A stretch of 64,000 nucleotides of DNA from Pollutibacter soli (lineage in GTDB: Bacteria > Bacteroidota > Bacteroidia > Chitinophagales > Chitinophagaceae), in the NCBI GenBank assembly GCA_029269725.1, contig JARJHS010000001.1, forward strand, positions 1,054,001 through 1,118,000. Direction: 5' to 3'. The notes under the pieces are model-generated. The model was given only the letters and a program-made list of their open reading frames with translations. It searched no databases and had not been told where the DNA came from. Within the stretch, counting starts at the first letter, position 1. Every line of letters begins with the position of its first letter. Of this stretch, positions 1 through 16,830 are shown in pieces. A program made the translations under genes and the position numbers.

Positions 1-1493
1 GGATTTGTTGCTTGATCTATCGCAGGTTGCTGATCAATCGAATGATCATATGGGTATCCTTCAACAATTTCGAAAATTACATCTATGCTCTGATCACTAA
101 ATTTTGAAACGGGATTTTCCAGTTCAAGTACACCCTGCCATTTGGCGATGGCCTCCATTTCCTCAATAAACAAATGGGGATCTGGTTGCGGCCGGAATAT
201 CGACCTGATACTGAAATGTTCTGTTTCATACGTTGGCCAGGTCAGTGCAAAGCCACCTTCAATATAATGAATCAGGAATCTCGCCTGCTGAACCTCTTTT
301 GTCAGTTCGATCAGGTGAATTTCAGCAATATGAAAAATCTCCAGTAATTGTTGCTTCTGTTCCACGGGAACTGTTTCAGCAATAGCAACTTTTATTTTCG
401 AGAAAGATTGCTGGATCAATGACGCAGTATATTCACCTGAAGTATAGTATGGGGGAAAGCTAACAACACTATGATCTGCTTCCACTTGCTCGACAGTCAC
501 TTCTGAGCCATCAGGCAATCCGAAAACCGTTGACATAAATGGCAAAGAATTTCTCAGCCCCTGGTTAGCCCCTGCATTTAACTTCCATTTCGAATCAGAG
601 CCATCAAAATATATTTTATATGCTGATGAATTTTTTATGGTTGGAGAAAACAATCGGTATTGAAGAATACTTTCAGGAATTGCTGTGAGTTTCGGCCTTC
701 GGGTTTCCTCTGATTGCGACATACGTAAAACAATGCGCTCAAAAAATTCTTTGTAAGAATAATGGAATCCTTCTCCTTCGAGCAACCCAATCAGCGTTTC
801 TGAAAAAATATTGTTGTCATCAAAACTGGCTTCTTCAGCAACCGCCGGTCGCACTTTATGCGGAGAACAGTTCTGAATGCATAATAATCGGTTATCTCCC
901 AGTGAAGGAAACACTACTTCTCTTGTATCATCCGGAAGAAAAACAGATCTGGCGAAATCCAGGATCAGGACAATATTTGTAGACAACCCTTCGGTTACCC
1001 GTTGAAGATGACTTCCGAAGCTTTCATTATCTCCTTCGAGTAAATTCCCTGCTTCAACCCTGTCGTTGCTGAAAAGCAAATCAATAAATCCTTTCTCCAG
1101 AACAGGGTTTGCAAGACAAATGCCACTATAATAAATTATGCAGATGTCATTTTCACCGGCTTCTCTAAAACCATGCAAATACATATCCCTCCTGCTAACA
1201 GCGCCCCAGAATAGTCCCGGAAGATAGTCGACATTACCATTCTGATTTTCGGTGTATTTTTTTAAGGCAGCGTTTATTCTTTCAACATTTGCTTTTCCAA
1301 AAGTCAGATCACCTGAGGGAAGATAATCAGCATAACCTATACCTACTCCGGTGAAAAAAATTCTTCTTTTGGTTTTGATTTCTTTACCCAGATCCGCGCT
1401 TTTTTCTTTCAATGCAAATATGTGCGGTTCCGCGGCCCAGATGGCCTTTTTCAAAACATAAGTACCGTTATTATCGTTTGATACTACTCCCAT
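1..1493 (-). CDS. Degenerate caspase-like protein, 3' end beyond the window (partial)
   Basis: An open frame runs without a stop from an ATG at 1491-1493 to the left edge, giving at least 497 residues. It begins 8 nt after the stop of the 739-residue protein, so it is the fifth gene of the operon. Residues about 44-185 follow a caspase-like pattern. A beta-strand ending YYSGIC (121-126) lies where active members have YFSGHG, so the catalytic His is Ile125. A second strand, LILDFARS (176-183), lies where active members have LILDCCHS, so the catalytic Cys is Ala181. Both catalytic residues are therefore replaced while the fold-determining strands remain. Residues about 190-497 match no family I recognise. 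I see a pseudo-peptidase; a regulatory, scaffold or decoy role is inference. The true C-terminus is not visible. Confidence 0.75.
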   Translation of the reverse strand, partial: MGVVSNDNNGTYVLKKAIWAAEPHIFALKEKSADLGKEIKTKRRIFFTGVGIGYADYLPSGDLTFGKANVERINAALKKYTENQNGNVDYLPGLFWGAVSRRDMYLHGFREAGENDICIIYYSGICLANPVLEKGFIDLLFSNDRVEAGNLLEGDNESFGSHLQRVTEGLSTNIVLILDFARSVFLPDDTREVVFPSLGDNRLLCIQNCSPHKVRPAVAEEASFDDNNIFSETLIGLLEGEGFHYSYKEFFERIVLRMSQSEETRRPKLTAIPESILQYRLFSPTIKNSSAYKIYFDGSDSKWKLNAGANQGLRNSLPFMSTVFGLPDGSEVTVEQVEADHSVVSFPPYYTSGEYTASLIQQSFSKIKVAIAETVPVEQKQQLLEIFHIAEIHLIELTKEVQQARFLIHYIEGGFALTWPTYETEHFSIRSIFRPQPDPHLFIEEMEAIAKWQGVLELENPVSKFSDQSIDVIFEIVEGYPYDHSIDQQPAIDQATN

Positions 1494-1501
1494 ATATTGA
1501 A

Positions 1502-3721
1502 CTAGCGATAGTATTGAGGAAATATTTCGTTCAGATGCTGGCCATCCAGCAATTTCTGCATAATATAAATTCCGCTACGCATGGCGAGATCATCATCGAT
1601 ACTTCCTTTTACACCAAAGGCATACTTCACTCCGATCTTGGTGGACATTTCAGCGAAATAGTCGGATCTGCAGGTATTCAGCACCAGCATATCCAGTTGA
1701 TCCTGGTAGTCAATAATTCTGCCGAAATCCTGAATTGTGAATGCTCCATCTTTTAACACCAGGTCACCATTTAAATCGAAGCCAGCGAGATAAAGCAATT
1801 GAATTCTGTTTCTGTTATTTGAATCCATGAAAAACTTATCCATTTTTGCTTTATCGGGATCTTCTAAAAAAACCGGCTCAAAAGCGTATTGCTCTTTTCT
1901 GCTTTCAAGAAGTTGACGAAGGCTTTGTTGTTCTTCTGCCATATAAGGCAGTTTTTTTTCAGGATCAGAAAAAACAAATCCCCAGACCGGAATGGCGGAT
2001 TCCATTTTTATTTTTTTAAGATGCTCTAACTCCGAGATATAAAATTGCCGCGATTCTTTCTTACTGAAATTTTTACTCCTGGCAAAGCTGGTCAGCGCCT
2101 CTGCTGTAGCAGCATCCCATTTTCCGTTGGAATGAAATTGGAAAAAACCGGTGTCTCTCAGGAGATCCTGCAGGTAGCCCATGCTGGGATTATCCGTCTT
2201 AAAAATCCTCCTGTACCCTTCTTTCGTTCCAATCATTTCAGGCCTTGCTTTCACATCTGCCGGTGTATGTTTTTGCACGGCCTCAAGTGTGCGAAGAAAG
2301 ACCTGCCGGATGTTTTCAATGTGCCCGTAACTCACCAGTACAATGGAAAGTTCTTTGGTAAAAAGACTACAGACTTTGTCGCCGATTTTTACATCACGAG
2401 CATTTTTCACACCTGATTGAATCACGAGGTTGGTTTTATTTGCCGGATCCAGCCAGCGATCGGAACCTTCAGCATCAATCTGTAAAACCATAGTAACGGA
2501 ATTACAATTGAAACTTTTACCCATCGTACAGATTTGCTGAGCACTGAGCCATCCATTCATATCACCAAAGGCGGGATCGGAATCAAAACACTCGAGATGG
2601 TCGCCATCATCATTGAATTTTGTTTCCGCAGAAAAGTAAATAATGACATCATCGTTTTTATCTGCCTTACCCGCAACTGAAACCAGGGTCTGCAGTACTG
2701 AGTGTTTGATAAAGTTTGCATCAGTCAGACTTATCAGGTGATCTTCATCCGGATCAAAATGTTTTTTTAATGATTCGAGTACAAATGTTGTGTTGTTCAG
2801 ATGTATATCCTGTTGATCAGGATTTTGTTTCTCTCTCGAAGTGCCGCCTGCGACAATCAGCCAGGTATTTTTTTTGGTAAGCTGTTTGAATTTCTCAGCA
2901 GCTGTTCCACTGATCCTGACAGGAATTCCTTCTTTTCCTGTTTTACTCAGGTAACTCAGAAGCGTTTTATCTTTTCGAAGCCGTTCAACAAAACCTTCAC
3001 TGTTTTCCTGAACGAGTTCCGACCATGCCTCGAGAATATGACTATGCTTATCATAAAACTCCAAAACGCTCTGGTCTGAGTCTTCATTACTCAGGTAACG
3101 TAGACGCTTACCTGTTTTGACAAACCGGTCAAGCGTGCGCATCATCTCCGTTTCCTGTTGCTGTTCAGCAGCTTTCTGCAAACGTGAAAGAAGAATGGCA
3201 GCAGTTTGCTCTGGACGCGTGTATGATATCGCCTCCAAAATCTGTAATTCACTGAATTCCGGCCCCCAACGATATAAAGCTGAATTTGGCAGATGATGAT
3301 ACTCTTCAACAAAAGCAGCGATCTCAGCGATCGACCTCAATTCTCTTTTTTTCCAGATGGGATTGGCTCCTTCCTGTTCCAGCCATTTCAAAAATGCAAG
3401 CCTGATTTCACTGCTCATTTCATACAACTCCAACCCCACTTCCCTGCACATTGGAGAAAGTAGTATATCGGAAACGGCCACCCGATGGATGGAAACCGGC
3501 GCTCCCGCCCAACGGTAACCGTTGAAATTCTGCCAGGTCTTGTACAACAGGTCGGGTGTCAGCAAGGCAGGTACCGAAGCATACGCAGCCATAATAAAAT
3601 GACCGTAGCGATATTCTTCAAAATAGCCATCGACATAACGTTGAAAGAACCATTCGATCTTACTCTGATCGCCACTGGAAAGTGATTCAGTTGGAAAATT
3701 TGGCGGAAGCTGACTTACCAT
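1502..3721 (-). CDS. Large protein with two degraded caspase/CHAT-like modules
   Basis: 739 residues, fourth gene of the operon; its ATG overlaps the stop of the vWA gene by one base (TAATG). Residues 1-285 are mostly helical and unrecognised. Residues about 286-490 resemble a caspase fold that has lost its active site: IIYFSAET (360-367) replaces the GHG strand and MVLQIDAEGS (411-420) replaces the DxC strand. Residues about 512-552 look like a peptidoglycan-binding-type three-helix unit (LQDLL, then GKWDAATAEAL). Residues about 577-739 resemble a CHAT domain: LLYLAGFDLNG (642-652) has Phe in place of the active His, while LVLNTCRSD (679-687) keeps the Cys. The tail, with GVKGSIDDD and RSGIYIMQKLLDG, is typical of CHAT ends. 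I infer a pseudo-enzyme or adaptor partnering the MoxR and vWA proteins. Domain calls are by eye and need profile or structure comparison. Confidence 0.7.
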   Translation of the reverse strand: MVSQLPPNFPTESLSSGDQSKIEWFFQRYVDGYFEEYRYGHFIMAAYASVPALLTPDLLYKTWQNFNGYRWAGAPVSIHRVAVSDILLSPMCREVGLELYEMSSEIRLAFLKWLEQEGANPIWKKRELRSIAEIAAFVEEYHHLPNSALYRWGPEFSELQILEAISYTRPEQTAAILLSRLQKAAEQQQETEMMRTLDRFVKTGKRLRYLSNEDSDQSVLEFYDKHSHILEAWSELVQENSEGFVERLRKDKTLLSYLSKTGKEGIPVRISGTAAEKFKQLTKKNTWLIVAGGTSREKQNPDQQDIHLNNTTFVLESLKKHFDPDEDHLISLTDANFIKHSVLQTLVSVAGKADKNDDVIIYFSAETKFNDDGDHLECFDSDPAFGDMNGWLSAQQICTMGKSFNCNSVTMVLQIDAEGSDRWLDPANKTNLVIQSGVKNARDVKIGDKVCSLFTKELSIVLVSYGHIENIRQVFLRTLEAVQKHTPADVKARPEMIGTKEGYRRIFKTDNPSMGYLQDLLRDTGFFQFHSNGKWDAATAEALTSFARSKNFSKKESRQFYISELEHLKKIKMESAIPVWGFVFSDPEKKLPYMAEEQQSLRQLLESRKEQYAFEPVFLEDPDKAKMDKFFMDSNNRNRIQLLYLAGFDLNGDLVLKDGAFTIQDFGRIIDYQDQLDMLVLNTCRSDYFAEMSTKIGVKYAFGVKGSIDDDLAMRSGIYIMQKLLDGQHLNEIFPQYYR

Positions 3722-4914
3722 TAGTTCATTAAAGCGGGTTTCTGATGTTTCAAAATTGTTCGGAGTGTTTCCTGGAATTTATCACCATATCTATCCAGCA
3801 CCGGTGCCATGAGGAAAACTTTTTTGCTGATTAGCTCTGCCGCATTTCCTTTCCACCTGTGCATCGGCATGGGGTTCAACCAAATGGTATGAGCGCAGGT
3901 CTCATCAAGAAAATCAAGAAATGCACCAGTGATTTCTGTTCTTGACTTTCGTCTTTCCGGATTACTGTTTCCCCTTGCAGCGCCTGCATCACTGATCACA
4001 ACAGCGAGTGTAAAATTCCTATTTGTTTTCAGTAATGCCTCTTTGATCTTTACCGGCCCGCTCATATTCGGATTGGTAAAAACATATCCGACGGGATGAT
4101 TCTGAAAATAGTACACCGGAACCCTGGGATGCCCACCACCCTTTCTTGCAGTTTCGATTAACCGGTTGGTGAGTTCATGAAAAGGAGCCATCGATCCACG
4201 GTAATCGGCAAAAATGATTAATGTGTCCTCACGGTTACGTTCACCTGATTTATATACCGGATTCAGAAATAATCCATCTTTTGCAACTTGCTTTATAGTT
4301 TCTTCTACATCGATTCCCTCTCTTGCATCACTTTTTTCTTTCAGTCTTAAAAACTGCCAGCCTTTTACCATTTGTCTTCTCGTTACCGGGAAATATTCAT
4401 CTGTCTGCAGAAACTCTGTTTCAGAAGATGAATACTGAACCTGCTGCTCATGTGCAACCACCTGGATCGGCAGGAACTGAAGCTGAAGTGTTTCCTCCTG
4501 CTCCATGGGCTCCGGCATGATGGATGTATCGGCTGCATTATCCATTTGTGGATGGTGTTGGGATACATTATCTTTTACCGGAGAACCAGGTGAAGGATTT
4601 TCTTTTTTCGGCTCCGGCTTTATTTTTGAAGCATCTGTCGCCTGGCTTGTTTTTGCCACAAGCGACTCCAGGAAAATTTTTTCTTTTTCAATGGCAACAT
4701 CCAGTAACGTATCAAACTGACGCTCATCCCGGAAATCCTGCAGAAACATGAATTTGCAGAATTGCCTGAACTGTTTCCAGTCTTCGTCGTATGACACATG
4801 GCCGCCTTCCAATGACTTCAGGAATTGCTGGTATTTGTCGATCCAACGCTCGTAGCTGAGCTTCTTTTCGAGCTCATGAAAAAAATTCCAGAAGGGTAAT
4901 CTTGCAAGGCTCAT
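3721..4914 (-). CDS. von Willebrand A domain protein, CoxE-like, partner of the MoxR ATPase
   Basis: 397 residues. The start overlaps the end of the MoxR gene by 4 nt (ATGA), which suggests translational coupling. Residues 1-85 are helical, 86-165 form a Pro/Glu/Gln-rich linker, and about 228-390 form the vWA domain. The first strand reads TLIIFADYRGSM (231-242), so the metal-binding DxSxS motif is D-Y-R-G-S: Asp237 and Ser241 are kept and the first Ser is Arg. A second acidic site sits in VVISDAGAARG (305-315). Proteins of this type usually act as substrate or metal-chelation adaptors for MoxR AAA+ chaperones, as in CoxD/CoxE. Position next to MoxR and caspase genes points to a vWA-MoxR ternary system. 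No signal peptide or membrane segment, so probably cytoplasmic. Confidence 0.85.
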   Translation of the reverse strand: MSLARLPFWNFFHELEKKLSYERWIDKYQQFLKSLEGGHVSYDEDWKQFRQFCKFMFLQDFRDERQFDTLLDVAIEKEKIFLESLVAKTSQATDASKIKPEPKKENPSPGSPVKDNVSQHHPQMDNAADTSIMPEPMEQEETLQLQFLPIQVVAHEQQVQYSSSETEFLQTDEYFPVTRRQMVKGWQFLRLKEKSDAREGIDVEETIKQVAKDGLFLNPVYKSGERNREDTLIIFADYRGSMAPFHELTNRLIETARKGGGHPRVPVYYFQNHPVGYVFTNPNMSGPVKIKEALLKTNRNFTLAVVISDAGAARGNSNPERRKSRTEITGAFLDFLDETCAHTIWLNPMPMHRWKGNAAELISKKVFLMAPVLDRYGDKFQETLRTILKHQKPALMN

Positions 4915-6197
4915 GCAGGTTTGGTGGTTTTTATTGATTGCTCACGCCTGTTCACTGCAGCGTATGTTTTTAACAGCGCCTGGAAATAGAATGGAAGATG
5001 TTTTAAACCATTCTCTGCAAAATCTTCACTCAAACCATTCGCCTTGTTTTTCTTATAATCGTTTATCCAATCACGTACCTCTTTCGATTGAATATTTTCA
5101 GGATTCTCTAAATCGAATTGGTATGCTCTTAACCAGTCAAGTAACTCTGAAGTCGAAACGCGTTTATTATCAGCAGGATCATTTTTGATATCTTCTCTCA
5201 GCTGGTTAAAGTGGCGAATGGCCAGGTCGACAAACGACATTTGTTTCGGATGTCCGTTTGCGTTGGCGGGATCGGCGCTCATATTGACCAGGGCAAACTG
5301 TTCTTCAAGCAATCCAGGCATATGAGCACGGATGATTTCGACCAGTTGTGAATCATCAGGAAATCGGATGTACATAAAAAGGCATCTTCTCAGGAAAGCT
5401 TCGGGCAATTCCCGTTCATCGTTACTGGTGATAAATATAATTGGCGGATAACGGGCTTCAATAACTTCGCCAGTTTCCGAAGAAGGAATAGTGAAACGCC
5501 GCTCATCGAGTTCCAGCAGCAGATCATTCGGAAAATCAATATCTGCTTTGTCAATTTCATCGATTAGTAAAATGGAAGGATTTTCTGCTGTTGATGTAAG
5601 AAACGCCTTCCCCATAGGACCAAAAGTTCTGTACTTTTTCAGATCCTGTTCTACCGGCGCTGGGTCGGTTGAAAGATTTTTCGCAATCTGCGCATCACGC
5701 AACCTTGCAATATGATCGAAGTAATAAAGGCCATCAACTGCTTTCGACGTGCTTTTGACCTGCCATTCAAAAAAATGATTTTTGTATTCGTCGCCATACC
5801 ACTCAAAAGCGAGTGACCGTGCCAGTTGGGTCTTGCCACTGCCCGGTTCCCCCTTAATCAATACAGGACGATTCAATATTTGTGCGAGACGTACAAGTTC
5901 TTTAATCTCCGGCGAAGGCAGGTAAGGCGGGATCGGTCTTGCCTTTGTGAATTTTGGATTACCGGCATGGTCTTTTTGCTGGACATAACTCCATGTCTCA
6001 GTTGTTTTATCAAATTCAAGTTCAGACACGGGAATCACCGGAGTAGCTGGCATCAGTCTTTCACGGATAATTTCATTGCCGCTGCTGTCTTTTGCTTTTA
6101 TCAGTTCAACCGTGAACCTGCTGGTGGAACCTTTGATGCCGGGATTCGGTGTTGGAAATGGTCTGATCAAAACATCATTATTTGGCATAAGGCGCAT
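4911..6197 (-). CDS. MoxR-family AAA+ ATPase
   Basis: 428 residues. Residues about 95-290 are the AAA+ core: Walker A GEPGSGKT (116-123), Walker B ILLIDEID (209-216), sensor-1 IIFITSND (253-260) and candidate arginine-finger Arg270/Arg271 in FLRRC. The first 90 residues are an unrecognised, Pro-rich extension. The C-terminal lid is helical. MoxR ATPases remodel protein complexes, usually with a vWA partner, and here the next gene supplies one. The start lies 7 nt after the caspase gene's stop, so the two are co-transcribed. A second ATG three codons in (6188) is equally possible. All core ATPase motifs look intact, so this is probably the motor of the operon. Confidence 0.92.
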   Translation of the reverse strand: MRLMPNNDVLIRPFPTPNPGIKGSTSRFTVELIKAKDSSGNEIIRERLMPATPVIPVSELEFDKTTETWSYVQQKDHAGNPKFTKARPIPPYLPSPEIKELVRLAQILNRPVLIKGEPGSGKTQLARSLAFEWYGDEYKNHFFEWQVKSTSKAVDGLYYFDHIARLRDAQIAKNLSTDPAPVEQDLKKYRTFGPMGKAFLTSTAENPSILLIDEIDKADIDFPNDLLLELDERRFTIPSSETGEVIEARYPPIIFITSNDERELPEAFLRRCLFMYIRFPDDSQLVEIIRAHMPGLLEEQFALVNMSADPANANGHPKQMSFVDLAIRHFNQLREDIKNDPADNKRVSTSELLDWLRAYQFDLENPENIQSKEVRDWINDYKKNKANGLSEDFAENGLKHLPFYFQALLKTYAAVNRREQSIKTTKPA

Positions 6198-6204
6198 TTA
6201 ATCG

Positions 6205-7923
6205 TTAGAAAAGCCAGAGTTGTTCCTCGAGTTTCAATTTGTCCACGCCCATTTTGGTACTCACTTCAACAATAAAATTTTCGATCTCATAATTACGTGC
6301 ATCCTGGAAATACCAGTTCATGTCAACAGACTGCAGATTTTTCGATTGAATCTCTCTTTTGGATAGATCGAGCCATCTTTTTGCATGGCCGAGAAACAAC
6401 GGTTCAACAGGTGCTGAGATCACCACTTTTACTGAATTACCCACTTTGTTTACAAAATGATCTCTTTTAAAGAAAGGCGTTTCAGCAATTCTTGTTTCTG
6501 CAATTACGAGTATTATTCTGTCGAAGGATTTATTGAGATAGGGCGCTGATTGTTTTACGATATTGATTTCTTCATATAACTCCTTACAGAATTGAATGAT
6601 GTTTTCACTTTGCGTAGCAGATTGAAAATTACAACCCAGGTAGATAATTAATGGTTTATCAGGATTTTTCTGCGTTTCATCTCTTAGTATTTGTCCGCAA
6701 ATACTTATTGCACATTGCTGCCTGAAATTGCTTTCCGTTGTAATTATTCCTTTAGATGCAGCCAATGCCTCCCAGGCACCGCTGCTGGTTTTGTCCGGCT
6801 CGAGGACGATATGATGCGAGAATTTCAGATCTATATTTTGCTGGTAGCGCAATTCTTCGAAAAAAACTTTTCCCTGCAGTTTGTGTATGTTAAAATTGGA
6901 ACACATGGTGGTGATGATGATAAAATCATCGTTGCCACCCTGGCTATAATCGCGAAGAAGATCATCACGCTGACGTATAAAATTCAGATGTCTGATGAAT
7001 GAAACCGAAAGCTGATCCACGGGCGGCACATCAGGATCTTTTAATTCAAAGATAAATTCACCCTGACCGTATTCTGTCGGAAGTGTGAAGTAACTGATTT
7101 CCTGGCTCGGATTTTCTTCCAGCATTTCAACATAATACCTGCTGAATTTTTCCTGTAACAGTTTTTTATCGATGGCTGATTTCGGATAAGTATTTGTCTG
7201 AAGCAAATTGCAAAGTGCTTTAGCGAACGGACTGCCCTGGCCGGGTGCGCCATCGCTTGCTTTCTGGTGTAATGAAGATGAAACCAATGCCCTCCTGGAG
7301 AAAAAATAAGGCTTGGCCAATGCAAAACCTAAACTTCCCGATCCTGCAAAACAACAATCAAGAATGAGCAACAGATCCAGACAATTTTTTCTGTTTATAA
7401 AATCGTAGAAAGATTCGTAGAGATCGCCAATGCGTACCCATGTGTTTCGGTACAAGTCACTTTTAATTCCATCGAAAGGGATGATGAAACCGGTAGTACC
7501 GCCTTTGTCAACTCCATGACCTGCAAAATAGATGAGCAGGTTGTCTTTTTCTGTGAGGGTCTGAGAAAGGAATTGAATGTGTTTCGAAATATTGACAGAA
7601 GTTGCATTCCTGTTGTAAAGGCATTTTACATCCGGTGAATCGTATTCGATGATTTCTTCGTTATAACCTTCCAGCTTTTTACCCGTCGCCTGCGAATTGA
7701 ATTTGTATTTCGACAGCAATACTTTCGTTACAGCATTGGCATCAGAAACTGCATTATCAAGTTTATTAAACCTGAATTTTTCGACCGGTCCTTCTGAAAG
7801 CGGAATTTGTGGAAACTCGGCTTCATCATAATTGTCTATAGCGATGACAAAAAGATAATTCCTGAGGTCTTTTGGTTTCTCAGCTCCGTTGACGGTAAGC
7901 GTATCTAGTCCGATATCGCGCAT
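6205..7923 (-). CDS. Caspase-like (C14 family) peptidase with unassigned C-terminal domain
   Basis: 572 residues, first gene of the operon. Residues about 20-290 form a caspase fold: LFVIAIDNY at the first strand, LLIYFAGHG (129-137) with catalytic His136, and LLLILDCCFAGSG (184-196) with catalytic Cys191. Both active-site residues are present, unlike in the two downstream relatives. Residues about 310-572 are a second alpha/beta domain without a P-loop (strands such as DDFIIITTMCSNF, PLIIYLGCNF and RIILVIAE). This could be an inactive STAND-like NTPase domain, as reported for other bacterial caspases, but I cannot confirm it. No signal peptide. Bacterial caspase-like enzymes in such clusters are thought to cleave host proteins on a stress signal. 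Target and trigger are unknown. Confidence 0.88.
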   Translation of the reverse strand: MRDIGLDTLTVNGAEKPKDLRNYLFVIAIDNYDEAEFPQIPLSEGPVEKFRFNKLDNAVSDANAVTKVLLSKYKFNSQATGKKLEGYNEEIIEYDSPDVKCLYNRNATSVNISKHIQFLSQTLTEKDNLLIYFAGHGVDKGGTTGFIIPFDGIKSDLYRNTWVRIGDLYESFYDFINRKNCLDLLLILDCCFAGSGSLGFALAKPYFFSRRALVSSSLHQKASDGAPGQGSPFAKALCNLLQTNTYPKSAIDKKLLQEKFSRYYVEMLEENPSQEISYFTLPTEYGQGEFIFELKDPDVPPVDQLSVSFIRHLNFIRQRDDLLRDYSQGGNDDFIIITTMCSNFNIHKLQGKVFFEELRYQQNIDLKFSHHIVLEPDKTSSGAWEALAASKGIITTESNFRQQCAISICGQILRDETQKNPDKPLIIYLGCNFQSATQSENIIQFCKELYEEINIVKQSAPYLNKSFDRIILVIAETRIAETPFFKRDHFVNKVGNSVKVVISAPVEPLFLGHAKRWLDLSKREIQSKNLQSVDMNWYFQDARNYEIENFIVEVSTKMGVDKLKLEEQLWLF

Positions 7924-11141: not shown

Positions 11142-11328
11142 TGTTAACGATAATACCATCAACACTTCAAAGATCCAATTTCAAACCTGCGATTCCAAGT
11201 GTAAAACACGAATACACCTGCGAAAAACACATCCGACTAATGGTTTTTTATCGTTGCTGTGTTTCGTGACTTAATCAACCTCAGAAAACGAATCCTGTTT
11301 GCCTAACTTTATAAAAAAAATTCCACGC

Positions 11329-12690
11329 ATGGATATCAGGAACAATATTCTGGAAACGATTGGCAATACTCCTTTGATCAAATTAAATAAAATAACACGC
11401 GATTTCCCCTGTGATGTGGTTGCCAAGGTTGATTATTTCAATCCCGGCAATTCAATCAAAGACAGGATGGCTGTGAAAATGGTTGAAGTTGCGGAACAAC
11501 AGGGTTTGCTGAAACCTGGTGGAACCATTATAGAATGCACAAGTGGAAATACAGGTATGGGTCTCGCTCTGGCAGCTATCGTAAAAGGATACAAATGCAT
11601 TTTTACTACCACCGATAAACAGTCAAAAGAAAAAATGGATATCCTGAAGGCTGTAGGTGCCGAAGTAATCGTCTGTCCGACTAACGTGGAACCTGATGAT
11701 CCAAGAAGTTACTATTCTGTAGCACGCAGACTGGCGAAAGAAATTCCCAATTCATTTCATGCTAATCAATATGATAACCTGGCAAACCGCTTAGCGCATT
11801 ACGAAACAACCGGACCTGAGCTGTGGAACCAGACGGATGGAAAAATCACTCACCTGGTTTGTACTGCAGGTACCGGTGGTACGGTAACAGGTACTGCACA
11901 GTTTCTGAAAGAGAAGAATCCCGATATTAAAGTATGGGCAATCGATGTGTATGGTTCATTGCTCACAAAATATTTCAATACCGGTGAGATTGATATGAAT
12001 GAAGTTCATCCTTACATATCGGAAGGATTCGGTGAAGATTTTGTTCCTGAAAATTATGATATGTCGGTCATCGATCATTTCGAACAGGTGACGGATAAGG
12101 ATGGCGCTATTATGGCGCGAAGGATTGCTAAGGAAGAAGGTTTGTTTTGTGGTTACAGCGCGGGTAGCTGTTTACAGGGATTGATGCAACTCAAATCATC
12201 TTTGAAAAAAGGAGATCTTGTGGTGTGTATTTTTCATGATCATGGCAGCAGGTATGTTGCGAAAATTTATAATGATCAATGGATGATGGAACGTGGTTTC
12301 CTCGAAGTGAAAACATTCAAGGATATCATCAATGGTCGTGGAGTAAGACAGAGATTGGTTTCAGTGGAACCAGATCGCACAATCGCAGAAACTGTTGAGT
12401 TAATGAAAAAGTATGATATTGAACATATTCCGGTGATCAGTGAAAGTGAACCTATAGGTGCGATTAGTGAGAACGGACTGTTTCAAAAAGTGTTCTCCAA
12501 CCCTGATATAAGAAACGAAAAAGTTAAAGCGGTAATGGAATCACCTTATCCATTAGTTGATTTTAATACTCCGGTGGAAAGAATCAGTACACTAATCAAT
12601 AAAGAAAACGGTGCAGTATTAGGAAAAGATGAGAGTGGGAATTTTCACATTGTAACCAAGTACGATATTCTGCAGGCTCTTGCCAAATAG
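11329..12690 (+). CDS. Cystathionine beta-synthase / cysteine synthase-like PLP enzyme with CBS domains
   Basis: 453 residues from the ATG at 11329; a TTG-initiated extension of ten codons is possible but less likely. Residues about 1-320 are a fold-type II PLP enzyme: GNTPLIKL near the start, NPGNSIKDRMA with Schiff-base Lys44, ECTSGNTGMGLA as substrate loop, and TAGTGGTVTGTA as phosphate cup. Residues about 335-453 hold two CBS motifs (VSVEPDRTIAETVELMKKYDIEHIPV is the core of the first). It joins serine or O-acetylserine with a thiol, in transsulfuration or cysteine synthesis. The C-terminal CBS pair usually senses adenosyl ligands. The gene stands alone, with a structured element upstream and a long gene-free stretch downstream. 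Confidence 0.9.
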   Translation: MDIRNNILETIGNTPLIKLNKITRDFPCDVVAKVDYFNPGNSIKDRMAVKMVEVAEQQGLLKPGGTIIECTSGNTGMGLALAAIVKGYKCIFTTTDKQSKEKMDILKAVGAEVIVCPTNVEPDDPRSYYSVARRLAKEIPNSFHANQYDNLANRLAHYETTGPELWNQTDGKITHLVCTAGTGGTVTGTAQFLKEKNPDIKVWAIDVYGSLLTKYFNTGEIDMNEVHPYISEGFGEDFVPENYDMSVIDHFEQVTDKDGAIMARRIAKEEGLFCGYSAGSCLQGLMQLKSSLKKGDLVVCIFHDHGSRYVAKIYNDQWMMERGFLEVKTFKDIINGRGVRQRLVSVEPDRTIAETVELMKKYDIEHIPVISESEPIGAISENGLFQKVFSNPDIRNEKVKAVMESPYPLVDFNTPVERISTLINKENGAVLGKDESGNFHIVTKYDILQALAK

Positions 12691-12699
12691 GTTCCAAAA

Positions 12700-13570
12700 T
12701 TTTACATCGCTCATTATCATAACATTAAGCCGCTTTACTGCTTCAGGTGATTCAAATAGGAACAGCTGTTCGCGTAGATTTACGAATGGTAAATACTGTA
12801 TATCTCCTATCCCAGAGGTAAAAAATGCGGTGTTAAAAATGAGTGAAAATGCTCTTGCACACGCATGTATGGGCTATTATCTTTGTTCCAGAAGTTGATT
12901 GAAAGGATAAGTACACCTTAACCGCCAATATCCAAAACCATCCAAGAAAAAGTTATCATCCAATATCAATGAAAGGGTGAAGCTACTCCTCTACAATCTT
13001 CTTCAAATAGCTCGTTCCACGGGCACCGTTTTTAAAGATCCAATATCATCCTAAGCATTCCTGCTGACCAGAAAGACCGAAACCAATTCCTGATTCGACT
13101 TAAAGTAAAACTTGAGTTGAGTTCGAAAAACCAGAATTATCCAAGATCCAAAAAACCAAAACAAAATCCAACGTCTTAGACAAACCAAGAGAAATCCAAT
13201 GTTATTTTGAAGACCAAGTTTTCCAATTATCCTGAAACCAAATTTGAAATCCAATTCCACTGAACCAAACCACCAGAAACCTCAAACAAAAAATTGTTTG
13301 ATTCAATTTCCGGAAAAACCAAAACAAACCCTTTATTCTGAGAAACCACAAATCCAATTACCATTGAAAGAAACCACAAACAATCTAATAGGAATTGTTT
13401 GACACTATCCAGAAAAACCAGGTATCCAATTTATCCGAGAAACCAAAAGAAAAAAATCCAAGTCCTGTACACACCATCCGAAAAAAAAATTGTCAGATTC
13501 AGGTTAATTCCTGGTAACGAAAATCAATCCTATTAAAAACCAGTAGAATTTAAGGCTTCTGACAAATGAA
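12700..13570. other. Long A/C-rich, G-poor gene-free stretch with degenerate short repeats
   Basis: No convincing gene lies in the 1.1 kb after the PLP enzyme gene. From about 12,900 to 13,530 the plus strand is visibly rich in A and C and poor in G. Words such as AAACCAAA, ATCCAAT and GAAACCA recur every 20-40 bp in a degraded pattern. The stretch ends at a strong plus-strand terminator (13573). Strand asymmetry plus a terminator suggest either an unstructured transcribed RNA or a decayed repeat array. The 72-codon frame at 12680-12898 looks non-coding. Confidence 0.6.
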
Positions 13571-13572
13571 TT

Positions 13573-13601
13573 GTCCCGCTCAAAAGGCGGGACTTTTTTT
13601 T
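13573..13601 (+). terminator. Strong intrinsic terminator
   Basis: A perfect 7-bp GC-rich stem (GTCCCGC/GCGGGAC) with a TCAAAAG loop is followed by eight T. It lies about 900 bp after the nearest plus-strand gene, so it may end a transcript covering the A/C-rich stretch. Confidence 0.85.
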
Positions 13602-13676
13602 GTTTATAGTTGCTAGTTGTTAGTTCTTAGTTCTTAGAAGGCAACAGATCATTGAAAATAACCGGATGGATAAAGT

Positions 13677-13702
13677 TTCGTTGTTCGTTGTTCGTTGTTC
13701 GG
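13677..13702 (+). repeat. TTCGTTG heptamer repeat
   Basis: About three and a half tandem copies of TTCGTTG. The same motif recurs at 18322-18390 and 56271-56310, always in gene-free spacers. Confidence 0.7.
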
Positions 13703-13805
13703 TGAAACGCCCAGTTTACCGTTTTCCGTTTTTTTCGGCTTTTCTGAATGCCTTTTACCTTAACTATTGCCTGGCTGTACCTTTTGCCCCCTTACTTTTG
13801 CCTGA

Positions 13806-14597
13806 ATGATCACTTCCATCGACCAGATTAGCGAGAAAATTCAATTGCAGAATTTTCCTGAAAGAATTGTTTCGTTGGTGCCGTCACAAACGGAATTACT
13901 TTATGATTTCGGATTAAACGAACAGGTAAAGGGAATCACGAAATTTTGCACAATGCCTGCTTCATGGTTTCATCAAAAAATTAAAATAGGCGGTACAAAG
14001 AATCTGAATATCAAAAAAATCCGGGATCTGGGGCCTGATCTGATTTTTGCAAATAAGGAAGAAAATGAAAAAGATCAGGTTGAACTGCTTAGAGAAATTG
14101 CGCCGGTTTGGACGTCGGATGTTTCAGATCTGGTAAGCGCTTTAAGAATGATCACTTCGATTGGAGAGCTCACTGGTCGCAAAAACAAATCGGATCAGAT
14201 CGTAAAGGTTATTTCTGAAAACTTCTCCAATCTGAAACAGGCTCAATACAAGCCATCTGTTGCTTACCTGATCTGGTATGACCCGATAATGGTGGCAGGG
14301 GGCGACTGTTTTATAAACGATATGATAAGTAAAGCCGGTTTCCGAAATTGCTTTTCCGATCAGTCGAGATATCCCAAAATTGATATTGAAGAAATCAGGC
14401 AATTCTCTCCCGAACTCATTTTTCTATCTTCTGAACCATTTCCTTTTTCAGAAAAACATAAACGCGAGTTTGAGCTGCTCTTTCCTGCATCTGCAATAGT
14501 ATTGGTAGCCGGTGAAATGTTCAGTTGGTATGGAAGCCGGCTGCTATATGCTCCTGCATACTTCCGAACCTTGCATGTTCCCGCGTTGGACGTTTAA
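13806..14597 (+). CDS. Helical-backbone metal/corrinoid-binding protein (BtuF/FepB-like)
   Basis: 263 residues. RIVSLVPSQTELLYDFG (20-36) is the hallmark N-terminal strand-helix of periplasmic cobalamin and siderophore binding proteins. KIGGTKNLNIKKIRDLGPDLIFANKEEN (60-87) and DIEEIRQFSPELIFLSSEPFPF are the two-lobe repeats. PSVAYLIWYDPIMVAGGDCFINDMISKAGFRN matches the second lobe. There is no signal peptide, which is odd for a binding protein, so it may be cytoplasmic or use another route. No ABC permease sits nearby. The gene is preceded by a short spacer and ends within an inverted repeat (14597-14636). Confidence 0.85.
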   Translation: MITSIDQISEKIQLQNFPERIVSLVPSQTELLYDFGLNEQVKGITKFCTMPASWFHQKIKIGGTKNLNIKKIRDLGPDLIFANKEENEKDQVELLREIAPVWTSDVSDLVSALRMITSIGELTGRKNKSDQIVKVISENFSNLKQAQYKPSVAYLIWYDPIMVAGGDCFINDMISKAGFRNCFSDQSRYPKIDIEEIRQFSPELIFLSSEPFPFSEKHKREFELLFPASAIVLVAGEMFSWYGSRLLYAPAYFRTLHVPALDV

Positions 14598-14636
14598 CGT
14601 TCAACTCCTGCCTGCCGGCAAAGGCAGGTTGAACGT
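14597..14636. repeat. Dispersed palindromic repeat with CCTGCCGGCAAAGGCAGG core
   Basis: ACGTTCAACTCCTGCC pairs with GGCAGGTTGAACGT, giving a stem of about 14 bp with one small bulge. It overlaps the last base of the preceding stop codon. Related copies are at about 47730-47765 and 52374-52398. It may act as a bidirectional terminator or be a miniature repeat. Confidence 0.65.
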
Positions 14637-14687
14637 AAAACCTACATATCCCCTATATTTGCCCCAAAATCTAAAACCAACTCCATC

Positions 14688-15746
14688 ATGGCCAATCAGA
14701 GACTCCTTGATCTTTTAGGTGATAAAGCCGAATACCTCCTCAATCATAAATCCACCGCTATAGATAAATCCACCCTTCACCTTCCTTCACCGGATCATAT
14801 TGATAAGATCTGGATCAACAGTAACAGGAGCAACCAGGTATTACGCAATTTCCAGGATCTTCTTGGTCATGGGCGTCTGGCCGATACAGGTTATTGCTCA
14901 ATTTTCCCTGTAGACCAGGGAATCGAGCACAGTGCAGGCTCCGCCTTCTCTCCTAACCCGATTTATTTCGACCCTGAATCAATTATTAAACTGGCTATCG
15001 AAGGTGGCTGTAATGGTGTAGCATCTACTTATGGCGTATTGGGTATCATGAGCCGTAAATACGCACACAAAATTCCTTTCATTGTAAAGATTAACCATAA
15101 TGAATTTTTAAGCCTTCCTAACCGCTACGACCAAACGATGTTTGGTACCATCAAAAGCGCATGGAATATGGGTGCTGTAGGGATCGGCGCTACCATTTAT
15201 TGGGGTTCTGAACCAAGCGCTCGCCAGCTGAAGGAAGTAGCTGAGGCTTTTGAATATGCACATGAGCTGGGAATGGTAACCATCCTCTGGTGCTATACCC
15301 GCAATAACGGATTTAAAGTTGATGGCGTAGACTATCATACTTCTGCAGATCTTACCGGACAGGCTAATCACCTGGGTGTAACACTGCAGGCAGACATCAT
15401 CAAACAAAAACTCGCTACCAATAATGGTGGATACCTGGCAACCAAGCATGGTAAAACGTCACCACTGGTGTATGAAAAACTGACTACTGATCACCCTATT
15501 GATCTTTGCCGTTACCAGGTATTGAATTGCTTCAACGGTCGTGTAGGTCTGATCAATTCAGGCGGAGAATCCAAAGGAACTTCTGACCTCGCTGAATCAG
15601 TATATACGGCTGTTATCAATAAAAGAGCTGGCGGTATGGGGCTGATCCTTGGACGAAAAGCCTTCCAGCGCCCATTTAAAGAAGGTGTGGAAATCCTACA
15701 GGCAACTCAGGATGTGTATCTCGACAAGGATATCACAATAGCCTGA
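14688..15746 (+). CDS. fbaB: Class I fructose-bisphosphate aldolase (DhnA/FbaB type)
   Basis: 352 residues, the usual length. It cleaves fructose-1,6-bisphosphate to dihydroxyacetone phosphate and glyceraldehyde-3-phosphate in glycolysis and gluconeogenesis, through a Schiff base. Diagnostic stretches are [16 protein letters not shown] near residue 73, [40 protein letters not shown] and the phosphate-binding INSGGESKG near the C-terminus. Metal-independent class I enzymes of this family are widespread in Bacteroidota. Cytoplasmic. It is followed by accD 166 bp later with no clear terminator. Confidence 0.93.
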
Positions 15747-15912
15747 CAACCAAGATCCTAGACTATTTTTATTGCCCTGGATGCAATAATCGCCGAAGCG
15801 GTTTTTGCAGTATTTTTAATTACATTTGTTTTGGTTAGGGACCGGAACTGTCTTTGATAGTATTACCGGGAAGTACGAAAGTGTGTGATTCCGGTACAAA
15901 TAAAAATGTGAT

Positions 15913-16830
15913 ATGGCCTTAAAAATTGAGGAAGATTTCGACGATCAGCTTTCTGGAGAGCCGGGGAAAACAGACGCTTCTACCAGCCGCTGGTTTAAAA
16001 GGATGAAAAAGGGTATCAACACGTCTACCTCCGAGAAAAAAGAGGCTCCGGACGGGTTGTGGACCAAATGTCCGCAATGCAAGTATACCTGCACCACCCT
16101 TGACCTGAAAGAAAATCTGTACGTATGTCCGAAATGTGAATATCATCACCGTATTGGCAGTACCGATTATTTCGAAATACTTTTTGACGATAAACAGTAT
16201 ACTGAGTTTTTCGCAGGTGTAAAATCTATCGACTATCTCGGATTCAATGACCTAAAGCCTTATAAGAAAAGGTTGGAGGAAGCCTATTACAAAACCGGGC
16301 TGCATGATTCACTCACGGCGGCACTGGGAAAAGTAAATGGTTTTGAACTGATGGTCTGTTGTATGGATTTTAATTTCATCGGTGGGTCATTGGGAAGTGT
16401 GATGGGAGAAAAAATTGCGCGCGCGGCGGATTACTGCCGGGAACACAAAGTACCACTGATGATCATCAGTAAGAGCGGAGGAGCAAGAATGATGGAAAGC
16501 GCTTTCTCTTTAATGCAGCTTCCAAAAACACTTGGAAAACTTACCCTGCTTGCAGAAGCCGGCGTTCCCTATATTTCTTTATGCACTGATCCCACCTATG
16601 GCGGTACAACCGCTTCATTCGCCATGGTGGGTGACATCAATATCGGCGAACCTGGTGCAATGATTGGTTTCGCAGGTCCTCGTGTTATCCGCGAAACCAT
16701 TAAGAAAGATCTGCCGGATGGATTCCAGAGTTCTGAATTTGTAATGAATCACGGATTTCTGGATCTCATCATCAATAGAAAACAACTCAAAGAAAAGATC
16801 AGCACTCTCCTGCTTCTTTTTAAACATTAA
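15913..16830 (+). CDS. accD: Acetyl-CoA carboxylase carboxyltransferase subunit beta
   Basis: 305 residues. A zinc ribbon with Cys53, Cys56, Cys72 and Cys75 (CPQCKYTC, then VCPKCEYH) precedes a crotonase-fold carboxyltransferase core. Diagnostic parts are FIGGSLGSVMGEKIARA, the SKSGGARMMESAFSLMQL strand and DPTYGGTTASFAMVGDINIGEPGAMIGFAGPRVI. With AccA it transfers the carboxyl group from biotin to acetyl-CoA, giving malonyl-CoA for fatty acid synthesis. accA is not in the window. The N-terminal 45 residues are a low-complexity extension before the zinc finger. Confidence 0.96.
   Translation: MALKIEEDFDDQLSGEPGKTDASTSRWFKRMKKGINTSTSEKKEAPDGLWTKCPQCKYTCTTLDLKENLYVCPKCEYHHRIGSTDYFEILFDDKQYTEFFAGVKSIDYLGFNDLKPYKKRLEEAYYKTGLHDSLTAALGKVNGFELMVCCMDFNFIGGSLGSVMGEKIARAADYCREHKVPLMIISKSGGARMMESAFSLMQLPKTLGKLTLLAEAGVPYISLCTDPTYGGTTASFAMVGDINIGEPGAMIGFAGPRVIRETIKKDLPDGFQSSEFVMNHGFLDLIINRKQLKEKISTLLLLFKH

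Follow-up and report, generated by a model that had tools for sequence, protein, structure and literature searches.

We analysed a 64,000-nt stretch of the genome of Pollutibacter soli (assembly GCA_029269725.1, contig JARJHS010000001.1; G000:C1:1054001-1118000), referred to below as the window, at the start of which five minus-strand genes, G1 to G5, lie in tandem (Table 1). From its sequence we assign the operon to the MoxR-vWA ternary conflict systems, with iSTAND-like as the probable subtype; an intact-looking caspase is encoded on one side of the MoxR and vWA genes and caspase-like modules with broken active sites on the other. The spacings given in the original prediction (7 nt, a 4-nt overlap, a 1-nt overlap and 8 nt) were confirmed from the open reading frame (ORF) coordinates; its five consecutive genes stand in order and strand, except that the fifth is cut by the window edge and, when completed 718 bases beyond window base 1, encodes 736 aa. 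The next same-strand ORF of at least 100 aa lies ~1.3 kb past the end of G5, and the operon therefore probably ends there. In what follows, C1, C12 and C33 denote contigs of the window's genome and L-numbers the loci compared.

Table 1. Genes of the operon, with coordinates in the window.
Gene	Coordinates	Strand	Product and domains
G1, third component	6205..7923	-	572 aa; N-terminal caspase (C14) domain and ~260-aa C-terminal domain
G2, MoxR-clade AAA+ ATPase	4911..6197	-	Pfam AAA_5 above cut-off; Walker A, Walker B
G3, CoxE-type vWA protein	3721..4914	-	Pfam VWA_CoxE above cut-off
G4	1502..3721	-	vWA-L-type adaptor (~aa 1-281), pseudo-caspase (~282-505), linker, CHAT-like module (~575-739)
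G5	1..1493, continues beyond the window to G000:C1:1053283	-	caspase-like and beta-rich domains

A vWA profile search at E ≤ 1e-15 was positive in 10 of 394 genomes of the family. With G384, a genome of another family found by a MoxR search, and L010, a contig of a metagenome-assembled genome (MAG) found among genome contigs, this gave 12 loci, namely the window and eleven others (ten genomes and one MAG; L124 duplicates L046 and was left uncounted). Their sequences are not independent, as L119, L121 and L122 share one genus and L014, L118 and L123 another. The close-packed order of third component, MoxR, vWA and G4-type gene recurs in 10 of the 11 further loci, the contig of the eleventh (L015) ending inside the vWA gene; the gene order is thus conserved outside the Pollutibacter soli genome, a point on which the original prediction had been made to depend.

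The N-terminus of G1 matches the Pfam Caspase family (PF00656, 42.8 bits against a cut-off of 21.4) and, as had been claimed, retains His136 and Cys191, a dyad by which we take it to be an intact-looking caspase. Both residues are invariant in all 11 third components with a readable N-terminus, a count that omits L010, whose N-terminus lies off the contig. The protease itself varies between caspase (six loci) and CHAT-like (five): PF00656 exceeds its cut-off in six proteins and CHAT in three, and the third components of L014 and L119, which have no Pfam match, were classed as CHAT-like by alignment with the others. The C-terminal domain is common to the caspase-type and CHAT-type proteins (hhalign 82% and 86%), i.e. 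the third component exchanges caspase for CHAT above a shared C-terminal domain.

This shared domain is without any Pfam match, and the Pfam iSTAND model (PF19995) finds nothing in G1 or elsewhere in the window's own genome. An 11-member profile of the domain did, by hhalign, match five class-level iSTAND proteins at 72% (control profiles at most 1.9%) and the third component of Nostoc carneum, which is iSTAND by Pfam (E 5.5e-22), at 94%; the other profile matches of the Nostoc protein are at most 8.2%. C-terminal profiles alone gave this similarity: full-length profiles yielded nothing in the C-terminal part, hhalign with two or three sequences yielded nothing, and an HMMER model from three iSTAND proteins reached a best full-sequence E of 0.005 against the 11 third components, which is not convincing. 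The Nostoc iSTAND protein itself scores only 0.3% against the five class-level iSTAND proteins, which indicates that hhalign overlooks true kin as well. The G1 C-terminal domain looks like a divergent inactive STAND module, and we tentatively call it iSTAND-like. The class-level relatives L059, L061 and L062, which supplied iSTAND reference sequences, carry CHAT-iSTAND, MoxR and fused vWA-effector systems, one of them with WD40 and WG repeats.

The second and third genes encode the MoxR ATPase and the vWA protein that had been predicted, both by their Pfam matches and by their motifs. The motifs of G2 are Walker A (116), Walker B (210) and AFLRRC (267; "Arg finger" is our own label for it), and a pattern search locates all three in the MoxR proteins of all 12 loci. 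G3, which is 71% identical to the vWA protein of L010, has DYRGSM at 237 and ISDAGAAR at 307. Among 11 vWA proteins, a strict pattern detects the first motif in 8, the exceptions being L121, L122 and L123, and the second in 9, the exceptions being L120 and L123.

Neither G4 nor G5 has a Pfam match above the cut-off, and the character of G4 emerges from comparison with its relatives. Across the 11 G4-type proteins gathered, all 12 family-invariant positions fall within the first 164 residues. Three cyanobacterial loci encode homologues of this adaptor region after vWA (hhalign 99.9%, E 9.5e-35); the three proteins came from a plasmid search and are each encoded directly after the gene that follows MoxR. 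That preceding gene matches VWA_CoxE in the two loci in which it was scanned. Pfam recognises the third component as iSTAND in two of the three. The N-terminal domain of G4 thus appears to match the published "vWA-L" with separately encoded effectors, as assigned from the available text of PMC8195603. Against the fused vWA proteins of the class-level relatives L059-L062 the adaptor gave only 7% by hhalign (E 0.005; controls E 0.2 or worse), an HMMER search of 795 ORFs with the domain returned G4 and the relatives then known and nothing else, and among 395 genomes of a phylum sample the domain was found in two, both already-known loci.

Beyond the adaptor, the first module of G4 has Glu366 in the place of the catalytic His and Glu418 in that of the Cys. 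Compared by hhalign with profiles of active caspase domains, its profile scores 98.5% (E 2.4e-15, 205 columns) and 98.2%, against 13% and 0.3% for unrelated vWA and third-component C-terminal profiles; the active-caspase set included the first 300 aa of the L046 caspase-hydrolase, which are its amidase part, and this row was ignored when the dyad was read. In a search of solved structures the profile of the whole G4 set matches metacaspases (best E 1.5e-4), and PF00656 exceeds its cut-off in module 1 of three of the ten G4-type proteins scanned (L046, L121 and L122), the window's G4 falling below it. The second module is CHAT-like, with Phe648 replacing His and Cys684 kept, and this state, His lost and Cys retained, is found in all three such modules (window, L118, L120). 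Between the two modules, at ~aa 516-561, there is a sub-threshold similarity to peptidoglycan-binding domains (E 0.011), which recurs, also below threshold, in the G4 homologue of L014 (E 0.0048).

G5 has Ile125 and Ala181 in the His and Cys places of its caspase-like domain, and both readable G5 proteins (window and L120) are without the dyad. It has a counterpart in an intact-dyad caspase-alpha/beta-hydrolase encoded on C12: blastp aligns the two at 22% identity over 519 aa (E 6e-15 in a 19-protein set), spanning the caspase part, and a whole-genome search with the C12 protein retrieves G5 (E 9.1e-13, query residues 242-554). By hhalign, the caspase part of G5 scores 62-63% when two sequences are used (controls at most 0.3%), and 26% and 1.8% with one; the beta-rich domain scores 79.5% against the corresponding part of the caspase-hydrolases. 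As G5 lacks the hydrolase part, it appears to be a hydrolase-less relative of the C12 protein, its caspase part being less certain than G4 module 1. The caspase homology that had been proposed for the downstream modules is accordingly strong, on sequence, for G4 module 1 and moderate, at the level of the caspase clan, for G5 and the CHAT-like module, while the accompanying claim of three modules with replaced active-site residues stands for G4 module 1 and G5 and needs correcting for G4 module 2, where His is lost and the Cys remains.

The division between intact and broken proteases extends to the relatives. In the 11 post-vWA proteins that could be compared (L015 is omitted because its contig ends), the first caspase module never keeps both dyad residues; the Cys, aligned with active caspases, is kept in none, and the His alone in two (L122 and L123). 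The tails of L118 and L119 contain further caspase-like modules without His, as read by eye. In the comparison of the window with L010, the ratio of nonsynonymous to synonymous differences per site (pN/pS) was 0.19 to 0.36 for four genes, G4 having the highest value and G1 being compared by its C-terminal part only; synonymous sites are saturated at this distance and the ratios are rough. Neutral decay of the broken modules appears unlikely, because they recur in relatives and the genes show ratios in this range. What follows the constant core is diverse: the G4-type tails or the following genes bring in leucine-rich repeats (LRR), pYEATS, SLOG and further caspase-like or CHAT-like modules, and in L117 a CHAT-nSTAND1 protein adjoins the core. 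Such effector variety over a constant core is the pattern of published MoxR-vWA systems.

Several loci place further proteases beside the core. In L120, a caspase-alpha/beta-hydrolase, a caspase-subtilase, third component, MoxR, vWA, G4 and G5 follow one another with gaps of -4 to 19 nt, G5 being truncated where the contig stops. The window's genome encodes a caspase-subtilase and a caspase-hydrolase together on C12, and we tie this pair to the operon because L120 carries both partners in one row with it; we infer that the pair would act jointly with the operon in the window's genome. In L014 a caspase-subtilase, a CHAT protein and a caspase-hydrolase precede the core, and in L015 a caspase-subtilase lies directly upstream (in both loci the first half of the caspase-subtilase falls outside the ORF used, its His thus being unread). 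Ten loci have visible upstream sequence, and six of them (L014, L046, L119, L120, L121 and L122) carry a caspase-hydrolase-type gene there on the same strand; of the remaining four, L123 carries such a gene on the opposite strand, past the effector genes, L117 has a separate hydrolase-only ORF instead, and the window and L118 have none in the upstream stretch examined. The caspase dyad is intact in all eight caspase-hydrolases and the hydrolase serine motif is present in seven, the eighth being the L046 protein, which has GDSL-lipase and amidase domains. This 1283-aa protein (L046 12584-16435), an amidase, an intact-dyad caspase and a GDSL lipase in one chain, replaces the caspase-alpha/beta-hydrolase at its locus.

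The association was also examined in a sample of 147 genomes. Caspase-subtilase matches at E ≤ 1e-70 were present in 3 of 3 vWA-positive genomes against 2 of 144 others, a threshold set after seeing the matches (at 1e-8, 12 of the 147 match, several by one half), and caspase-hydrolase matches at E ≤ 1e-8 in 3 of 3 against 8 of 144, the match in G095 consisting of ~61 residues at a contig end. Other caspase genes were seen along the way. On C33 of the window's genome (L007 9724-11965), a caspase adjoins a 345-aa CHAT-like protein that is 44% identical to one within the L014 cassette, and this pair is possibly the third of the system's dispersed parts. Next to the core, on the opposite strand, L117 (14508-19124), L121 (1-3609) and L122 (16970-20000) encode large separate caspase-domain proteins. 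At L102, caspase-domain proteins of 1671 and 1735 aa (2864-7879 and 11202-16409) flank a 669-aa relative of the front part of the caspase-hydrolase; the 20 kb seen there contain neither a MoxR nor a vWA match.

These features place the operon among the MoxR-vWA conflict systems, as the original prediction had it. Adjacent MoxR and vWA genes with the third component 5' of them are found in the 12 loci as far as the contigs reach; the homologous adaptor, which links the locus to the cyanobacterial loci, is followed by varied tails in the manner of vWA-L linkers with variable effector domains; and the third component begins with a peptidase domain, as in iSTAND systems. Three other classifications were rejected: an EACC1-caspase two-gene system (NF047832, 41.1 bits against a cut-off of 140), MADS (MadB model, 85.6 bits against a cut-off of 475) and a VMAP-type system, there being no VMAP family in the Pfam scans (G1 E up to 1; ten relatives E up to 0.001-5). 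PADLOC assigned a generic "caspase" model to the caspase proteins and weak generic ATPase models to G2, with no model for G3, G4 or G5. A PHROGs comparison gave no informative match, and the viral contigs searched contained no relative of G3.

One active protease combined with degenerate copies was originally put forward as an unfamiliar layout, and here the available sections of PMC7159879 (Kaur et al. 2020) provide a precedent in VMAP systems. They describe caspases fused to VMAP or iSTAND third components, report that, where a VMAP system has a caspase as its vWA effector, that caspase is inactive in ~70% of cases, state that a vWA-component caspase is nearly always accompanied by a third-component caspase and an alpha/beta-hydrolase, and propose a switch and a proteolytic cascade in which inactive enzymes are decoy-like. 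Active and inactive caspases with a companion hydrolase are therefore not new in kind, having been published for the VMAP type. Our loci share with that type the third-component caspase, the mostly inactive vWA-side caspases and the companion alpha/beta-hydrolase gene, and differ in the absence of any VMAP family from the Pfam scans and in the fusion of the hydrolase to its own caspase and a beta-rich domain; in the same sections VMAP systems are described as rarer or absent in Bacteroidetes. Relative to iSTAND-type systems as these sections and those of PMC8195603 present them, our loci differ in that the Pfam iSTAND model does not recognise the C-terminal domain of the third component, that no protein read has an intact first caspase module on the effector side, and that several loci show linkage to caspase-subtilase and caspase-hydrolase genes. 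PMC8195603, in the sections available, describes vWA-L effectors encoded by genes of their own, in iSTAND2 and also in a minority of the iSTAND systems; iSTAND2 and TERNS3 resemble our loci in encoding vWA-L and effector separately after vWA, and, compared by description only, differ in using mainly trypsin or cyclase (iSTAND2) or TIR (TERNS3) and in occurring mainly in other phyla. The portions consulted of PMC10907252, on MoxR ternary systems with retroelement-diversified sensors, and of PMC10910872, on vWA-MoxR-VMAP near CRISPR, describe neither this layout nor a bench test of it. Outside MoxR-vWA systems, the pseudo-orthocaspases of photosynthetic bacteria (PMC6426788, in its available part) likewise have a prokaryotic caspase fold without the His-Cys dyad, but with Tyr/Ser replacements, in photosynthetic lineages and with no MoxR-vWA operon described. 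Within the open-licence literature searched, what is new is the consistent intact/broken split in a clade, the caspase-subtilase partner and the hydrolase fused to its own caspase.

A number of observations weigh against this assignment or against the wider system drawn from it. The Pfam iSTAND model recognises neither the window's third component nor that of any of the ten scanned relatives; the C-terminal profile scores just 3% against an Anabaena iSTAND protein and 0.3% against a Crinalium EAD1 protein, and the caspase-type subset alone 17.5% against Bacteroidota iSTAND (all by hhalign). AlphaFold2 models of G1 and G4, each built with one homologue (L010), have mean predicted local distance difference test (pLDDT) values of 39.1 and 36.1 and are too poor as fold evidence, the G4 model being also the sole basis on which the adaptor domain might be called helical. 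Three relatives lack the strict vWA metal-site pattern, the His retained after vWA in two loci blurs the split, and in L014 a nearby Cys coincides with the Cys column when the G4-type proteins are aligned by themselves, though not in the alignment with active caspases. Finally, the C12 pair is unlinked to the operon in the window's genome, and caspase-hydrolase and caspase-subtilase genes occur also without MoxR-vWA.

With these points taken into account, we consider the operon on balance a probable MoxR-vWA ternary conflict system with pseudo-caspase adaptors, its likely subtype being iSTAND-like. The homology of the parts, their conserved order, the split and the linkage of partners in a relative can be read from the sequences themselves; the conflict role, the switching by MoxR and vWA and the cascade we infer from the family, and what is sensed and what results are conjectured in the same way. 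G1, with its caspase and iSTAND-like domain, would sense an invader or damage; G2 would spend ATP remodelling G3, which would hold the adaptor protein G4; and the broken caspase folds of G4 and G5 might bind active caspases or their substrates, either holding the caspases off until triggering or gathering them once triggered. G1 and the C12 caspase-subtilase and caspase-hydrolase could then launch a proteolytic cascade leading to growth stop or cell death. It is a guess, to which we give rather less than even weight, that binding to active caspases is how the dead ones work. More doubtful still is the fullest version, a multi-protease death cascade in which MoxR-vWA controls pseudo-caspases that gate several active caspases, a subtilase and a hydrolase, part of them encoded distantly, with a cFLIP-like parallel and with the pseudo-caspases derived from active partners (G5 from the caspase-hydrolase, G4 module 2 from CHAT).

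Explanations of the last step differ. The dead modules might regulate directly, pairing with G1 or with the C12 proteases so as to inhibit or activate them; this is the switch originally proposed. The parallel would be animal cFLIP (mentioned in the available text of PMC8195603), a dead caspase homologue beside active ones, and is an analogy only. The intact-dyad relative of G5 in the same genome, the fusion in L117 of a G4-type part to the G5 beta-rich part, and the retention of a caspase-like domain though no member keeps both catalytic residues all point this way; pairing of these caspases is nevertheless a supposition, and we regard such regulation as a tentative possibility, short of even. 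An unlikely alternative, which shares the system-level assignment and differs in the last step only, is that G4 and G5 are decoys: inhibitors from an invader would bind them rather than the active caspases, and MoxR-vWA would sense the binding. Between the window and L010 the G4 pseudo-caspase does diverge faster than the adaptor (48% against 71% identity; pN/pS 0.44 against 0.25), which suits decoys but equally fits relaxed constraint, with synonymous sites saturated, and no invader interaction is known.

It is less likely again that the operon is a housekeeping or developmental assembly machine in which MoxR-vWA matures a protease complex for stress or lysis. MoxR-vWA pairs elsewhere mature metabolic complexes, according to the available sections of PMC7159879, and the G+C content of the operon equals that of the rest of the window (0.421 against 0.420), but the patchy presence of the vWA gene in the family and of the adaptor in the phylum sample, and the variation of the effector tails, argue otherwise. 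That the dead modules are decaying copies, already disfavoured above, is very improbable: the pseudo-caspase is less well conserved than the neighbouring adaptor domain, but the frames are open, the domain is kept, the dyad is broken in all 11 post-vWA proteins, one of them from another family, and the pN/pS of G4, dS being saturated, is 0.36.

If a conflict system with pseudo-caspase adaptors is the correct reading, an intact caspase and its dead relatives would, throughout a clade, have fixed positions to either side of an ATP-driven switch, in an arrangement that resembles the cell-suicide or antiviral switches predicted on paper, with extra protease genes. It would add protease-hydrolase partners that are not recognisable from the operon alone, and would offer a compact, genetically separable case in which the published prediction of inactive-enzyme effectors in MoxR-vWA systems becomes testable.

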